From: Bacteroidia bacterium | Lineage (GTDB): Bacteria; Bacteroidota; Bacteroidia; J057 | Assembly (NCBI GenBank): GCA_033391075.1 | Contig: JAWPMV010000003.1 | Span: forward strand, 186,001 to 250,000 | Direction: 5' to 3' | DNA length: 64,000 bases | Shown here: positions 2,377 to 35,781 of the stretch, piece by piece | Layout of the letters: each line of letters begins with the position of its first letter | How positions within the stretch are numbered: position 1 is the stretch's first letter | The notes under the pieces: generated by a model | Database searches by the model: none | The model's input: the letters and a program-made list of their open reading frames with translations, nothing else | Told to the model about the DNA's origin: nothing | Position numbers and translations under genes: made by a program

Positions 2377-4089
2377 ATGAAAAGAAGAAAATTCATCCAA
2401 TCCGCTACTACAGCCGGAGCTTTTTTGCCGATGATCGGCTCAGTTACTTTCTTATACAAGTCATCAAATGAAGAAGAACTCATCAGCCTATTCCTGGCCG
2501 AAAATGACAAAAGGGTTCGGAATATTCTGGATTTACAGCAAAAAGATAAAGCCCATCCCTTTTATGGAGGCTTCCCGGATAAATACGAAATCTATCATCC
2601 CAGCAGGCCCGCCGCCTATGCGCAGTCTTTGATTTCCGCCTTTGTATCCGAAGCATCCGAATTTTATAGATCGAGAGAAATAAAGGATTGCCTCAAAGTC
2701 GGGATGGAGTTTTTAGTAGAAAGGCAACATGAAGATGGAACCATAGATTTGCTAACCACCAATTTTCATTCTCCTCCCGACACCGCTTTTGCAGTAGAGC
2801 CTCTGAGTTTGGCGCTTCTTATCTTGAAGAAATATTCTCCCGAATACCTGCAAGACTTCCAACAAATTGCAAAAAGCTTCCTGCTTGAAGCCGGGAAAGC
2901 CATGAGCGTTGGCGGAATCCACACCCCCAATCATCGTTGGGTGGTTTGCCGTGCCCTTGCCCGCATCCATAGCCTTTTCCCCAATCAAGAGTACCTGGAT
3001 CGAATTGAAGCATGGTTAGCGGAGGGTATTGACATTGATCCAGATGGTCAGTACACAGAAAAGAGCAGTGTGGTTTATTCGCCCCTGACCAATAATTGCT
3101 TTATCAGCCTCGCAAGGATCTTGAAGAAAACCGAACTATATGAAGTAGTCCGAAAAAATTTACAAATGAGTCAGTATATGATGCATGCGAATGGAGAAGT
3201 TGTAACGGAAGCTTCTACCCGACAGGATAAATTTACAGTGGCTCATATGGGTCGCTATTATTATGCCTATCGCTATATGGCTCTGAAGGATCAGGATGCT
3301 AGCTTTTCCGCCATGGCTCACTCTATTGAAGAGACCGTAGGATTCAAATCTCTGTCCGGGAATCTTCCCTACTTTCTGGAGGACGAAGAGCTGGAAAAAC
3401 CCATGCCCAAAACCGCTACTCTTGACCTTTCTTATGAGAAAAGCTTCCCACACTCTCATATGGTCAGGATCAGAAGGGGGAAGATGGATGCTACAATTCT
3501 GGGAAGGAACAGCAGTTTCTTTACTTTTTTTCATGGATCGGCGGCACTGCAGGCGATTCGTTTTGCGACAGCCTTCTTTGGAAAGGGGCAGTTCAGTAGT
3601 CCTGAATTATCAAAGGAAGGCGAAAGTTATATGCTGAGTCAGGAACTTTGGGGTCCTTATTATCAGCCGCATGAAAAGGAGAATATAGCAGCAGATGGGG
3701 ATTGGCACAAGATGCCTCGAAGTAAAAGAAAACAAAGTGAAGTTCAATATTTGAAAAGTGTGGTCAGGATTTCAGAGCAAGAAGGAAAATGTAAGCTTCA
3801 TTTTTCCATACAGGGGACGGAGCATATACCGCTTGCCATTGAATTGGCTTTCAGGGCAGGAGGCAAACTCAAAGGGGTGGAAGCTGTAGCGGAAGTAGAG
3901 CATGCCTTTTTCCTCAAAGACGGATATGGCAGTTTTCAATCAGGGGAAGAAAGCATTCGCTTTGGACCGGCTATGCACAAACATAAATGGACGCAGCTTA
4001 GAGGCGCCAAAGCGAAATTGAATGGTGATAGTGTGTATTTGACTGCATATACCCCTTTGGAGTTTGAATTGGAGATAGAAGGCAGTTAA
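2377..4089 (+). CDS. Tat-exported protein, possible (alpha/alpha) toroid polysaccharide-active enzyme
   Basis: The protein begins MKRRKFIQSATTAGAF, a twin-arginine signal, so it should be folded before export to the periplasm. Residues about 30-330 are mostly amphipathic helices with repeated aromatic and His-containing turns (GGIHTPNHRWVV at about 190, EKSSVVYSPLTNNC at about 230, EASTRQDKFTVAHMGRYYYAYRYM at about 275-300). Residues 330-570 are rich in beta strands. This helical barrel plus beta-sandwich layout resembles heparinase II/III-like and related polysaccharide lyases, but I cannot pin a family or prove catalytic residues. It stands upstream of the T9SS/GH20 pair and may belong to the same glycan locus. 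An uronyl hydrolase or a non-catalytic homologue is also possible. Confidence 0.5.
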   Translation: MKRRKFIQSATTAGAFLPMIGSVTFLYKSSNEEELISLFLAENDKRVRNILDLQQKDKAHPFYGGFPDKYEIYHPSRPAAYAQSLISAFVSEASEFYRSREIKDCLKVGMEFLVERQHEDGTIDLLTTNFHSPPDTAFAVEPLSLALLILKKYSPEYLQDFQQIAKSFLLEAGKAMSVGGIHTPNHRWVVCRALARIHSLFPNQEYLDRIEAWLAEGIDIDPDGQYTEKSSVVYSPLTNNCFISLARILKKTELYEVVRKNLQMSQYMMHANGEVVTEASTRQDKFTVAHMGRYYYAYRYMALKDQDASFSAMAHSIEETVGFKSLSGNLPYFLEDEELEKPMPKTATLDLSYEKSFPHSHMVRIRRGKMDATILGRNSSFFTFFHGSAALQAIRFATAFFGKGQFSSPELSKEGESYMLSQELWGPYYQPHEKENIAADGDWHKMPRSKRKQSEVQYLKSVVRISEQEGKCKLHFSIQGTEHIPLAIELAFRAGGKLKGVEAVAEVEHAFFLKDGYGSFQSGEESIRFGPAMHKHKWTQLRGAKAKLNGDSVYLTAYTPLEFELEIEGS

Positions 4090-27895: not shown

Positions 27896-28951
27896 CTATT
27901 TCAACATCAAATGCAAATCTCCAAACTGATGCCAGTGATAAGCCGAACGAATCGCCTCTTTATAGGCTCTTTCTATATGCTTGAAACCCAGTAAAGCCTG
28001 TAGAATATGTAAATGAGAGGCTTTAGGCTCATGAAAGCCACTCAATAATCCATCCGTCACTTTTATGGGGTAACTTTCATGGATATATAAGTCGGTCTTC
28101 CCTCTGTAAGGCTCTATGATCCCCGCTTCATTTACAGCACTTTCTATAGCTCTTATGGCGGTTGTTCCGACTGCAATTATTCTTTTTCCCATTCGTTTTG
28201 CCTCATTGATACGCAAGGCAGAAAGGGGATTTACCTCCATGTATTCGCTATAGGGTTTTTCTCCTTCTTCCAGGCTGGAGACCCCGCAGTGCAAAAGGAT
28301 AGGCGCGAATACAATTCCCTTCCTGATTAATCTTTTCATCAATTCTAAACTAAAGGCCCTTCCGGCTGAAGGCATTTCAACACTGCCGGGATGAAAGGAA
28401 AATTGAGTCTGATAATAGGAGAGGGGATAGGACTCATTTAGCTGGGTATATTTGATTGGACGTCCATGCTTAGCCAAGTAAGTTTCCAGCTCCTGATCCA
28501 GATGGATTTCTGCCTTCCAAAGATCAAGCAAATGTTCTTCTCTATAATGCCGCTCTTGCAATTGGATCCTTCCTCCTGCTGGCAAATCAAAAATCATCCC
28601 TTGCTCGCCCTCTTTCCAACGTATACTTTTATCGCCCTGAATTTCTCTAATCTCAACCAGCCATTTTCTCTCCGATAGTCTGGTACTCAGGTGTAATTTT
28701 GCAGGAATTCCTCCGGATAGTTTTAGGGGAAGCGCAGCAGGAATAGTTGCTGAGGTATTGACGACCAAAACATCTCCGGGAGATAAATAATGATCAAGCT
28801 GATGAAAATGATCATGTAGAAGTTCTCCAGAATCTTTACTGACCAATAATCGAACCTCATCTCTTTTTATGTTTCGCCTTTCCGTAGGCAGGGGACAGGC
28901 AAGAGAATCAGGAAGGTCAAATTGAATGATATTATTGACTAAGGTTTTCAT
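27896..28951 (-). CDS. QueA-like S-adenosylmethionine:tRNA ribosyltransferase-isomerase, divergent paralogue
   Basis: QueA transfers and rearranges the ribosyl part of SAM onto 7-aminomethyl-7-deazaguanine in tRNA to form epoxyqueuosine. The start at 28951 (MKTLVNN) is preferred; it lies inside the end of the SDR gene, overlapping by 20 bp. The overall order of QueA blocks is kept: GDVLVVNTSATIPAALP, YYQTQFSFHPGSVEMPSAGRAF, RIIAVGTTAIRAIES, DGLLSGFHEP and AYKEAI...GDLHLML. Several signature motifs are altered compared with classical QueA: APTAGLHF is MPSAGRAF, LHVGAGTF is LHCGVSSL, and TNFHLP is SGFHEP. This points to a paralogue with a changed substrate rather than the housekeeping enzyme. 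Context (SDR oxidoreductase, GAF-LuxR) does not resemble a queuosine operon. Confidence 0.75.
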   Translation of the reverse strand: MKTLVNNIIQFDLPDSLACPLPTERRNIKRDEVRLLVSKDSGELLHDHFHQLDHYLSPGDVLVVNTSATIPAALPLKLSGGIPAKLHLSTRLSERKWLVEIREIQGDKSIRWKEGEQGMIFDLPAGGRIQLQERHYREEHLLDLWKAEIHLDQELETYLAKHGRPIKYTQLNESYPLSYYQTQFSFHPGSVEMPSAGRAFSLELMKRLIRKGIVFAPILLHCGVSSLEEGEKPYSEYMEVNPLSALRINEAKRMGKRIIAVGTTAIRAIESAVNEAGIIEPYRGKTDLYIHESYPIKVTDGLLSGFHEPKASHLHILQALLGFKHIERAYKEAIRSAYHWHQFGDLHLMLK

Positions 28952-29651
28952 AATTCTTTTCTGTTTGTAATTGTGGGGTGTATCTGCCTCCGGGCAAGTC
29001 ATTTTCTATGAGTTTCAATATTGCGGGCAGGGCAAATTCTTCTGGAGAAGGTCGATCTGAGATATCATCCTGGGGAAAGGCAGCCTGGTGCATATCGGTA
29101 CGCATATCTCCGGGATCAAAAGCATAGAATCTGTATTGGGGATTTTCCTTCCCAAGTATAGCGCTCATGTGATCCAAGCCGGCTTTACTTGCTCCATATA
29201 CGCCCCAACTTTCATAGGCCTCGACAGCAGCATCACTACTCAGGTTTATGATTTTCGCAGCCTCTTGTAATTGATCTTTTACTTTCTGTAAAAGAGAAAT
29301 GGGAGCAATCATATTGGTATGTAGGACGATATGCATTTGCTCAATGGGATGCTCAAAAAGAGGAAGCATTGGACTTGGGCCCAGGGCAGAGGCATTGTTT
29401 ACCAACAGATCGAGTTTCCAGGATTTATCCATTAGTAATTGGGCCAGCTCTAAAAGGTGAACTTCATCTCTGACATCACCGGATACAGCTATTACTTCAG
29501 TATAGGTGGAAAGCTCTGTTTTTACCCTGAATAGTTGGGAAGAATTTCTGGCAGTTATCAGCAACTTCCAGCCTTTGCTGGCGAGGGATTTTGCGAGGGC
29601 ATATCCAAATCCTTTGGATGCTCCCGTGATTAAGGCAATTTTTTCTGACAT
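28932..29651 (-). CDS. Short-chain dehydrogenase/reductase
   Basis: A classical SDR of 239 residues. Visible features are the dinucleotide-binding TGASKGFGYALA (about 9-20), the structural NNASALG (about 87-93), a catalytic Ser in IINLSSDAAVEA (about 137) and the YxxxK motif in WGVYGASKAGL (Tyr about 151, Lys about 155). The coenzyme is probably NADP(H), judged from the basic residues after the first beta strand (TARNSSQLFRVK). The substrate is unknown. Its 3' end overlaps the start of the QueA-like gene by 20 bp, so translation is coupled. A lux-box-like palindrome lies 76-95 bp upstream of its start. Confidence 0.85.
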   Translation of the reverse strand: MSEKIALITGASKGFGYALAKSLASKGWKLLITARNSSQLFRVKTELSTYTEVIAVSGDVRDEVHLLELAQLLMDKSWKLDLLVNNASALGPSPMLPLFEHPIEQMHIVLHTNMIAPISLLQKVKDQLQEAAKIINLSSDAAVEAYESWGVYGASKAGLDHMSAILGKENPQYRFYAFDPGDMRTDMHQAAFPQDDISDRPSPEEFALPAILKLIENDLPGGRYTPQLQTEKNYENLSQ

Positions 29652-29724
29652 GATATTCGTGTTATTATTTGATACAAATATCCTGTGCTGCCCACTCGCG
29701 TAAAACGTACCTGTGACTAGAAAT

Positions 29725-29748
29725 CTACCTGTACTTATGTACAGGTAG
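29725..29748. promoter_or_regulatory. Lux-box-like palindrome upstream of the SDR/QueA-like operon
   Basis: A perfect 10-bp inverted repeat with a 4-nt centre. Its inner 20 bp, ACCTGTACTTATGTACAGGT at 29727-29746, agree with the classical lux box except in the five central bases. Another half-site, ACCTGT, lies at 29709-29714. The palindrome sits 19 bp past the stop of a LuxR-type regulator gene and 74 bp before the SDR start. No T-tract follows on the minus strand, which argues against a simple terminator. Confidence 0.5.
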
Positions 29749-29766
29749 CAATAAAAAAGTCTAGGA

Positions 29767-30714
29767 CTACAGACTGAGGAGGCCTCGCCTAAGGGCCGTA
29801 TCTACCGCCTCGGTTCGAGTCTCTGCCTGTAATTTTGAAAGAATAGAGGAGAGGTGAAATTTGATCGTCCGCTCTGTGATATACAGATGTTCTGCGATCT
29901 GTTTGTTCGTATGTCCCTTGCGGACCAATTGCAAAACTTCCAGTTCCCTGCTAGTTAGGGGTGAAGAGGGATACTGAAATTGGATAGCTTTTTCCTGCTT
30001 TTTCTGCTCCTTATGAAGTCCTTGACGGATCAGTGCTATTTGTTCGGCGATCTCTTCCAGCAATTCAAGAGAAGCATTGATTCTTTCTGATTCTGGAAGT
30101 TCGGATTTAAACTTCAGCAAATTTGATGAGAGTTCATCTAATCTGGGTGTCAGAACGCGCCCCAGAATTTCGCGGATCGAATGATTGTTTTCGGGTAAAT
30201 GGCTGCTATACAAATCTTGCAGACGAGTCCTTTGAATGGCAATCCCTATGAGTTCACTAATCGTGTTTAACATCGATAGCTGTTCCTCGCTCAATTTTTG
30301 GCTTTCCTTACTCAGGAGGTTTAGGATACCAGCTTTTTCTCCCTGTATAAAAATGGGAACGGTCGCATGAAATTTCAGATCACGGGTTTCCGATTTGATG
30401 TCTTTGAGGCGAGTACAGGTGATTTCGCTAATATTTTCGGCTTCAGAAACTGTATTGGATAAATATTTTTCAATGCAACTGCACCAGCCGGAAAGCCTCT
30501 CTGGATAATTGGAGAGGGCAGGAGGCAAATTATAGGATGCAGCCAGATACACAGATTTATTATCCTTCTGGATCAACCATATCCATCCTGTCTCCAGATT
30601 CAGTAAGCTCACCGTTTTATGCAAGGCTTTCCTCAGGGCAGCTTGCAAAGAATACTCCTGGTTCAGATGGCTCGCTATCTCATACAAATGGGAAAAATAT
30701 TCTTTATCTCTCAT
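29767..30714 (-). CDS. GAF-domain LuxR/NarL-type transcriptional regulator
   Basis: An N-terminal GAF sensor (about residues 18-168) is joined through a helical, possibly coiled-coil linker (about 185-245) to a LuxR-type helix-turn-helix (about 250-312: LTSRELEVLQLVRKGHTNKQ, then IAEHLYITERTIKFHLSSIL). There is no phosphoacceptor receiver and no acyl-homoserine-lactone domain. The GAF domain has Cys78-Ser-Cys80 (SGWCSC), Cys100 (EITCTRL) and His116 (FHATVP), a set that could bind a metal or iron-sulfur cluster, so a redox or gas signal is plausible. The gene starts 32 bp after the CPBP stop. The palindrome at 29727-29746 just beyond its 3' end is a candidate binding site. Confidence 0.8.
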   Translation of the reverse strand: MRDKEYFSHLYEIASHLNQEYSLQAALRKALHKTVSLLNLETGWIWLIQKDNKSVYLAASYNLPPALSNYPERLSGWCSCIEKYLSNTVSEAENISEITCTRLKDIKSETRDLKFHATVPIFIQGEKAGILNLLSKESQKLSEEQLSMLNTISELIGIAIQRTRLQDLYSSHLPENNHSIREILGRVLTPRLDELSSNLLKFKSELPESERINASLELLEEIAEQIALIRQGLHKEQKKQEKAIQFQYPSSPLTSRELEVLQLVRKGHTNKQIAEHLYITERTIKFHLSSILSKLQAETRTEAVDTALRRGLLSL

Positions 30715-34357: not shown

Positions 34358-34765
34358 ATGAAGATTAACGATTTAGAGAAGCTTAGTAGCGAGCTGCATT
34401 CTGGTGAGTTTAAATACCGGCTTGTCAGTCGCTATCGTATGGGCTTGTATAGTCCGTTGGAAATTTGGCAAAGCTATGGAGTAAGTCGTAGCTTATTACA
34501 TAAGTGGAACTGCCAGTACTACCGAAATTTCATTTTATCTGTAAAACCACCTAACTCTATGAATTCCAGGAAAAACTCCAACAAGCAGCGCATCGCTCAG
34601 CTAGAGCGTCAGCTTCGCGAGCTCAAAGCCGCCTATGCAGAAGAAAAACTCAAACGTCAGATGTACGAGAAAGTCATCCGTATAGCTGAAGAAGAATTTG
34701 AGATGCCGGTTAGAAAAAAGGCTGGCGCCAAGCAGTTGCGGAAGGACGCAGGGACTACCCCTTAG
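34358..34765 (+). CDS. IS3-family transposase OrfA
   Basis: The DNA-binding subunit of the transposase. The N-terminal helix-turn-helix is at about residues 20-55 (YRLVSRYRMGLYSPLEIWQS, GVSRSLLHKWN). A leucine-zipper-like coiled coil (about 72-110, RIAQLERQLRELKAAYAEEK) serves for dimerisation. Near its 3' end is the heptamer A AAA AAG at 34714-34720 in the correct phase for a -1 slip into orfB. OrfA alone would end at the TAG at 34763-34765. Confidence 0.85.
   Translation: MKINDLEKLSSELHSGEFKYRLVSRYRMGLYSPLEIWQSYGVSRSLLHKWNCQYYRNFILSVKPPNSMNSRKNSNKQRIAQLERQLRELKAAYAEEKLKRQMYEKVIRIAEEEFEMPVRKKAGAKQLRKDAGTTP
34714..34720 (+). promoter_or_regulatory. Programmed -1 frameshift heptamer
   Basis: A_AAA_AAG is phased X_XXY_YYZ relative to orfA. 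Slipping back one base reads on without a stop through GWRQAVAEGRRDYPLVSM into orfB, and the inferred junction RRDYPLVSMTQLC is the usual N-terminal sequence of IS3 OrfB. This directly supports an OrfAB fusion transposase. Confidence 0.8.
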
Positions 34766-35781
34766 TGAGTATGACACAACTCTGCCGCGTGTTTGGCCGA
34801 CATCGTCAGGCCTGGTATCGAGCCACCCTGACTAAAGAGCGTCAAGATATGCAGGAGCTACTGATCCTGGAGAAAGTTCGGCGCATCCGCAAGGAACTTC
34901 CTCGCATGGGAACAGAAAAGCTCCACGTCTGTTTGAAGCATTTTTATCGGGATCACTACATCAAAATGGGTCGAGATCGGCTGAATCGAATTCTGAAGTC
35001 AGCGGGTTTATTGGTTCCCAAGCACAGCCGTAGAGCGCGTACAACGCATTCCCGGCACAGATTCCGGAAATACGCCAACCTGATCAAGGGGCTGCAACCT
35101 GCTCGAGCTAATGAGCTCTGGGTCAGTGATATAACCTACATATCTGTAGGCGGATACTTCTGTTATCTCAGCCTGGTAACAGATGCTTACTCTCGTAAGA
35201 TCGTTGGCTGGAATCTGGGCAGAACGCTCGAAGCCAAGGGCCCTATAGCTGCCCTAAACATGGCCATTAAGCAGCGAAAGGATCCTAAGCAAACCCTCAT
35301 CCATCATTCTGATAGAGGCATCCAATACTGCTCTCATGCTTATGTGGAAATCCTGGAAGAAAACCAGATACAAATTAGTATGACAGAGGGAGAATCCTAT
35401 GAAAATGCCATTGCTGAACGGGTCAATGGGATGCTCAAGAATGAGGTGTTTATGACACAAGGCTTCCCCAATTTTGAACTGGCCCTGGCAGAAGTACAAA
35501 GAGGTATCAAAGCCTACAATACCCTGATGCCACATAGATCCTGTGATATGCTAACACCAGCTAAGGCGCACAAAAAGAAAGGTGTGCTCAAAAGAAGATG
35601 GAAGGACTATCGCAAACTCAAACTTCAGGCCCTGGATTACGAACGAGACTCCCACGATCCAGTATCGTCCGTCTCTCCTCCCCTGCCCCGCAAGACGCCA
35701 GACACAGAGTCCGGGAGGAGAATGAATACCTTTTTGAATCTTGAACAATCAATTAAAAACAGTCCGAATAATCCAGGGTAA
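34765..35781 (+). CDS. IS3-family transposase OrfB (DDE integrase core)
   Basis: The catalytic half of the IS3 transposase, normally made as an OrfAB frameshift product. An HTH_21-like segment (about 35-90) precedes the rve integrase core. The catalytic triad is Asp122 (LWVSDITYI), Asp183 (IHHSDRGIQY) and Glu218 (YENAIAERVNGMLKNE), with 34 residues between the last two, the D-x34-E usual in the family. It can begin independently at GTG 34765 or ATG 34771, overlapping the orfA stop. The basic C-terminal tail (about 275-338) is the part that recurs as a decayed copy at 46726-46885. Confidence 0.9.
   Translation: MSMTQLCRVFGRHRQAWYRATLTKERQDMQELLILEKVRRIRKELPRMGTEKLHVCLKHFYRDHYIKMGRDRLNRILKSAGLLVPKHSRRARTTHSRHRFRKYANLIKGLQPARANELWVSDITYISVGGYFCYLSLVTDAYSRKIVGWNLGRTLEAKGPIAALNMAIKQRKDPKQTLIHHSDRGIQYCSHAYVEILEENQIQISMTEGESYENAIAERVNGMLKNEVFMTQGFPNFELALAEVQRGIKAYNTLMPHRSCDMLTPAKAHKKKGVLKRRWKDYRKLKLQALDYERDSHDPVSSVSPPLPRKTPDTESGRRMNTFLNLEQSIKNSPNNPG

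Follow-up and report, generated by a model that had tools for sequence, protein, structure and literature searches.

Does a palindrome that closely resembles the lux box of Vibrio fischeri act in a Bacteroidota genome as the operator of the LuxR-type regulator encoded beside it, and does that regulator descend from the quorum-sensing proteins that such a box calls to mind? The locus lies in a 64,000-nucleotide stretch of DNA from a Bacteroidia bacterium, here referred to as the window. Judged by comparison across genomes, the palindrome is a real and widely conserved predicted operator. We hold it to be probable that this operator serves a dedicated activator, the adjacent GAF-HTH protein, which would have arisen from a merged kinase and response regulator.

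Position and rarity of the palindrome

The sequence-only reading of the window had drawn attention to ACCTGTACTTATGTACAGGT at 29727-29746. This sequence is present and forms part of a 24-nt palindrome at 29725..29748 (no strand assigned), CTACCTGTAC-TTAT-GTACAGGTAG, which has a 10-bp stem and a 4-nt loop and is predicted to be an operator; the conserved operator core, CTGTAC-N4-GTACAG, occupies 29729-29744 inside it. By sequence, the 20-bp ACCTGTA...TACAGGT has the dyad of a lux box, and the palindrome core is identical at 11/12 positions to the lux box of V. fischeri, ACCTGTAGGATCGTACAGGT. The exact pattern ACCTGTAN6TACAGGT occurs at a single place in the 9,489,248-base genome (one in the reversed control) and, with one mismatch, at three further places, and the related CTGTMCN4GKACAG has its sole site in the 9.49-Mb genome here (reversed control, 0). 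Within the window, the palindrome pattern with up to two mismatches was seen twice against 1.19 expected, which is chance level, so that the case for the palindrome rests on the exact match and on conservation. The third half-site that had been pointed out at 29709, ACCTGT, is also there, but it is not conserved, its ACAGGTACGT context appearing in 1/11 aligned Bacteroidota rows.

As the same reading had it, the palindrome lies between luxR (29767..30714, minus strand) and the gene for an SDR oxidoreductase (28932..29651, minus strand). The arrangement requires one correction: the three genes, luxR, SDR and the QueA-like one, are read in the same direction from the minus strand, and the box is thus downstream of luxR and upstream of the SDR gene. 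It is found ~20 bp past the luxR stop, at a distance of 85 nt from its centre to the ATG of the SDR gene.

The SDR gene is the first of the predicted target operon. The second (27896..28951, minus strand) encodes a tRNA ribosyltransferase-isomerase paralogue; its listed ORF starts at 29002, the likelier start being the ATG at 28951, with a 20-bp overlap with the end of the SDR gene. The QueA-like product is a member of Pfam Queuosine_synth and falls far under the NCBIfam cut-offs for QueA (182 vs 324 bits and 167 vs 267 bits). The canonical QueA is probably encoded by another gene of this type, which stands elsewhere in the genome and is 30% identical to that of the operon. The SDR-QueA pair is widespread, and in Saprospiraceae-type Bacteroidota it mostly comes with a GAF-HTH gene.

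Several side observations concern these genes and their surroundings. Haloarchaea (Haladaptatus, L081 and L085) also have the pair of SDR and QueA-like genes; in these loci neither a linked regulator nor a box within 250 nt was found. In two Chloroflexota genomes (L234 at 643, L235 at 2890), CTGTCCTTTTGGACAG or its complement stands ~320 nt from a second, more QueA-like gene, which may therefore be in the same regulon. One relative (L089, 3620-4714) encodes an SDR with an N-terminal extension of ~125 residues that by eye is SnoaL/NTF2-like. Elsewhere in the window (34358-35781, plus strand), two overlapping ORFs resemble by eye an IS3-type transposase pair.

The box tracks the promoter of the operon

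Conservation of the palindrome upstream of orthologous operons, the check that had been proposed, was examined in a scan seeded with the window's SDR, from which the best 80 of 104 relatives were kept. The first nine Bacteroidota loci looked at (L035-L042, L071) all keep CTGTMC-N4-GTACAG upstream of the SDR gene, and across 11 aligned Bacteroidota rows CTGTAC-N4-GTACAG is conserved, with variation in the outermost bases of its left side. Eleven Bacteroidota genomes contained the motif 15 times, 11 of these at the SDR promoter and one per genome, as paired by hand with the SDR loci; the reversed control gave 9. Among four other genomes scanned, G070 has its sole strict motif match on a contig stretch without any of these genes, and its own cassette (L088) scores 11/12 for the box. 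The palindrome is kept even where the regulator is distant or unlinked: the box remains at the SDR promoter with luxR ~1 kb off (L039, L071), with luxR 3-4 kb off (L132, L139) and with an unlinked regulator (L035, L042). Between regulator and SDR promoter, L039 (~2850-3560) and L071 (~2960-3700) have a reverse-strand stretch that by eye resembles a REP-associated/IS200-like transposase.

The promoter geometry is equally regular. In the window, GATATTTG (29675..29682, minus strand), which we take to be a -7 element of the Bacteroidota TAnnTTTG type, has its TTTG beginning 58 nt from the box centre. This distance recurs in 14/16 Bacteroidota loci, kinase-type L226 included, the exceptions being L132 (59 nt) and L042 (81 nt); in the window, 0.8% of positions carry a TTTG. 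The fixed 58-nt spacing fits the operator of an upstream activator, not a terminator, and bears out the earlier suggestion that the palindrome sits where an activator of the SDR/QueA-like operon would. In one subgroup of Bacteroidota SDR promoters, a further element with partial conservation, TTCTATCC...TTTGNCNGATG, lies ~23-31 nt past the box centre and before the -7 element.

The hairpin had alternatively been viewed as a terminator, in this arrangement an intrinsic one of the luxR transcript. Its 10-bp stem, its 4-nt loop and its location just past the luxR stop would suit that role, and a lax terminator scan lists the palindrome. However, the tail, ATTTCTAGTC, holds only three consecutive Ts, and it is the sequence itself that is conserved, beyond the pairing of the stem. 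Since the box keeps to the SDR promoter, and to its fixed distance from the -7 element, even where luxR lies 1-4 kb away or has no linkage to it, we regard a terminator as highly improbable and the upstream operator as the preferred reading.

Co-occurrence of box and regulator

The box was looked for, with 11 of 12 as the lowest accepted score and 250 nt as the greatest distance from the SDR gene, in 76 SDR loci with at least 16 nt upstream of the SDR, namely 72 with a QueA-like hit plus the exceptions L075, L177, L203 and L204, the window itself being excluded. It was present in 23/26 loci with a linked GAF regulator vs 2/50 without (Fisher p = 4e-14, a value that overstates independence, as the loci are related by descent). 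Both box-bearing loci without a linked regulator have one elsewhere in the genome: an unlinked intact GAF kinase (L131/L138) with a 52% response regulator in the genome of L042, and an unlinked fused regulator (L278) in that of L035. Locus L089 was counted as boxless in this tally because its SDR starts further upstream; a box was found later ~100 bp before the longer SDR start, and the genome has a 58% kinase and a response regulator elsewhere (L275). The loci with a linked regulator and no box are L198, L200 and L087, the last labelled as fused in the tally and actually a kinase cut by the contig end. L080, tallied as without a regulator, has a cut kinase and a box score of 9.

Genomes lacking the box at the SDR promoter were inspected from the side of the sensor. 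In the eight with a promoter score of at most 10 (L043, L045, L054, L055, L064, L076, L081 and L084), no kinase match begins before query residue 113 (8/8), and hence none covers the GAF domain. Where kinase/regulator genes are present and unlinked, the box was found at 8/13 SDR promoters; L213 scores 10 of 12, and L214, L219, L222 and L223 are without a box. This count leaves out L216 and L220 (no upstream sequence) and L221 (no SDR), and L224 is L042 again. In G704, a fused regulator (L136) has no SDR-QueA pair nearby, and the genome has no QueA-like match.

Some regulator-bearing loci or genomes do without the box, and this would suit a reading in which some other conserved factor binds the box and the presence of the GAF regulator is incidental. 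Against this, the box accompanies the regulator in three phyla, whether or not the two are linked, and no box at a score of at least 11 was found in the Actinomycetota SDR-QueA loci among the 76. From these comparisons another factor seems quite unlikely, and the GAF regulator is the preferred candidate for binding the box.

A one-component regulator with two-component relatives

The window regulator, a fused one-component protein of 315 aa, consists of a GAF domain (residues 22-161), linker helices (177-204 and 208-234) and a GerE/NarL-type HTH (252-307). Pfam confirmed the earlier description of a GAF and GerE-HTH protein without an AHL domain: GAF and GerE (PF00196, E=2.1e-19) were found, and no autoinducer-binding family matched at E<=10. 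The predicted model (mean pLDDT 69.6, pTM 0.56) has the linker as two successive helices. In the eight fused proteins scanned, the Response_reg receiver, present in the L082 response regulator, is absent, and neither HATPase nor HisKA_3 gave a match, the latter even at E<=10. By domain content, this is a one-component regulator, with sensor and DNA-binding domain in one chain and no phosphotransfer domains.

Cassettes from Chloroflexota (L082, L088) and Gemmatimonadota (L044, L075), among others, encode a GAF kinase and a NarL-type response regulator as two genes; the kinases have an H-box and ATPase region, and the response regulators are of receiver-HTH build (Pfam domains shown for L082). 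Fused proteins share 40-45% identity with the L082 kinase over the GAF domain and, where listed, 51-67% with the L082 response regulator over the HTH. An intact kinase of 388 aa with its H-box is encoded in two Bacteroidota genomes (G066, G582), together with a response regulator 52-54% identical to that of Chloroflexota L180; in seven fused genomes searched, the best match to the L180 response regulator was 33%. Residues C78, C80, C100 and H116 are kept in 14/14 fused proteins and in 43-44/45 kinases. By sequence, the whole window protein is homologous to the kinase/response-regulator pair. A strict-E search for the fused regulator gave 2/13 genomes in the family and 2/22 in the order; a phylum draw, with part of the candidates per genome scored, gave 1/395 (the window's own), and the order of G065 gave 9/298, made up of 7 fused proteins and 2 kinases. 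The fused form was confined to one Bacteroidota clade in the genomes searched.

A 59-row GAF tree, which leaves out kinases L205, L206 and L080, united the 14 fused proteins in a single clade (99/89), whose sisters are the two Bacteroidota kinases (98/83) and which is nested in Chloroflexota kinases. The fused clade stayed (99/93) upon addition of 13 more distant GAF proteins, in a tree that also leaves out L207 and L208, and a tree holding this outgroup together with the fused rows was rejected (p-AU 0.0015); the 13 rows do not all lie on the same side of any branch, since L087 is placed among them, long branches occur in some and, with an H-box in 4/13, they are not all shown to be kinases. 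The trees do not include fused protein L278, which came to light later. The HTH tree (64 columns) placed the fused HTHs within the cassette response-regulator family, with little resolved and the HTH source traced no finer than that.

The phospho-acceptor His of the H-box is present in 45/45 kinases vs 0/14 fused proteins. Likeness to the kinase DHp region nevertheless persists in 7/14 fused linkers, where 0 of 1000 shuffles were as good, as illustrated by the L133 linker (EERQRLSQRLQDSLIQ) beside the kinase sequence (EERNRLAREIHDTLAQ); L133 branches first among the fused proteins in the 59-row tree, with weak support. For the linker of the window protein, likeness to DHp is not significant, 142 of 1000 shuffles scoring as well, and the same holds for six other fused linkers. 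Because the HisKA_3 profile found no match, the claim of an H-box relic rests on the alignment and the shuffle test. It seems that a sensor kinase and the regulator that it partnered became one protein, with the phosphate relay lost and the DNA site and targets kept.

Two-component systems are commonly held to descend from one-component regulators, a one-component-first view reportedly put forward by Ulrich et al. in 2005. Applied here, the one-component form would be ancestral and the two-component pair would have arisen by gaining kinase and receiver modules, an order in keeping with the general view and with an ingroup tree that by itself is unrooted. The rejection of the tree joining outgroup and fused rows, the H-box remnants in half of the fused linkers (7/14) and the restriction of the fused form to one Bacteroidota clade among the genomes searched all argue against this order, which we judge very unlikely in comparison with a merger.

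A second alternative takes the protein for a true quorum-sensing regulator of the LuxR lineage that kept its lux box after the AHL domain was swapped for GAF. The 11/12 match of the box core would agree with this, as would the Foldseek search on overall topology, which has AHL-type LuxR proteins among its top matches. But the nearest solved structures of the HTH are VraR/ComA/DevR-type response regulators, and the full-length kin is the kinase/response-regulator pair. The boxes themselves are also telling: the full CTGTAC...GTACAG form is found in 11/14 fused Bacteroidota-lineage boxes vs 1/19 kinase-type ones (L082), and position 5 is A in 12/14 of the former and C in 13/19 of the latter (counts by hand on a hand-compiled list of 14 fused-lineage and 19 kinase-type boxes). 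As the full form is frequent in the fused lineage and nearly absent from kinase-type boxes, the likeness to the lux box looks convergent within a common HTH superfamily. The notion of a LuxR-type regulator that "still" uses a lux box is not supported; descent from the LuxR lineage is barely credible, and the merger of kinase and response regulator remains our reading.

Proposed mechanism and implications

We propose that a NarL-type response regulator and its cytoplasmic partner, a GAF histidine kinase, became a single chain. The merger would have kept the GAF domain of the kinase and, at first, its dimerisation helices, and would have lost the phospho-acceptor histidine, the ATPase domain and the receiver, with the response-regulator HTH joined on. 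In the resulting protein, the GAF domain would perceive a signal and the helical linker would transmit it to a dimeric HTH. Bound to CTGTAC-N4-GTACAG ~65 bp upstream of the putative start site, the HTH dimer would recruit RNA polymerase and thereby activate the SDR/QueA-like operon. That the regulator binds the box, that it activates and does not repress, that it dimerises by way of its linker, where transcription starts and what kind of signal is perceived are all inferred from sequence. A regulator that represses the operon instead is unlikely, given a box centre that far upstream of the predicted start, outside the core promoter and at a fixed distance; activation is preferred.

Taken as a whole, the likely course of events is that a two-component pair collapsed once to a one-component activator that uses the dimerisation helices of the dead kinase as a signal lever, with operator, promoter spacing and target operon unchanged, and that the same sensor family controls the SDR and QueA-like pathway in at least three phyla. 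A literature search of titles and abstract openings returned no report of an SDR-QueA operon with a GAF-HTH regulator, nor of such a kinase/regulator fusion. If true, this would be a traceable reversal of the usual evolution of signalling, with living kinase-type relatives and fused proteins that bear the H-box remnant. The unchanged operator and promoter geometry would make removal of the phosphorelay without rewiring of targets testable. The box also provides a clean search motif for a pathway of SDR and QueA-like enzymes that is conserved and uncharacterised, as well as for the sensor of that pathway. It is a caution, too, that a palindrome resembling the lux box can arise in regulators of other than quorum-sensing descent.

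Comparison with known systems

With the AHL-responsive LuxR of V. fischeri and its lux box, the window regulator shares a GerE HTH, a near-identical palindrome and the union of sensor and HTH in one chain; it differs in its GAF sensor, in having no autoinducer domain and in showing no sign of descent from the LuxR lineage. EL222, a light-activated DNA-binding protein, joins a LOV/PAS light sensor to a GerE-type HTH and uses no phosphorelay. It is among the structure matches of the window HTH (PDB 8a5r), only its HTH matching. On the side of the target, the operon enzyme shares Pfam Queuosine_synth with QueA, the tRNA preQ1 ribosyltransferase-isomerase, and differs from it in staying below the QueA cut-offs.

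A possible hint to the signal comes from Staphylococcus aureus AirSR, whose kinase has a cysteine cluster, CX7CXCX17C, that binds [2Fe-2S] (PMC4601167). The window family has CxC-X19-C plus a His, and this conserved CxC...C...H set, which recalls the AirS cluster, suggests as a reasonable guess that the GAF domain responds to a redox, metal or nitric-oxide cue. The comparison is one of motifs, and the window family does not conserve a counterpart to the first Cys of AirS.

Among two-component systems, NarL/VraR/DevR-type response regulators and GAF HisKA_3 kinases have HTH and GAF domains homologous to those of the window regulator, and the Chloroflexota and Gemmatimonadota cassettes share with it the same operator core and target operon. 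In contrast to the GAF HisKA_3 systems, however, the window regulator is one protein, without the kinase catalytic domain, the phospho-acceptor His and the receiver.
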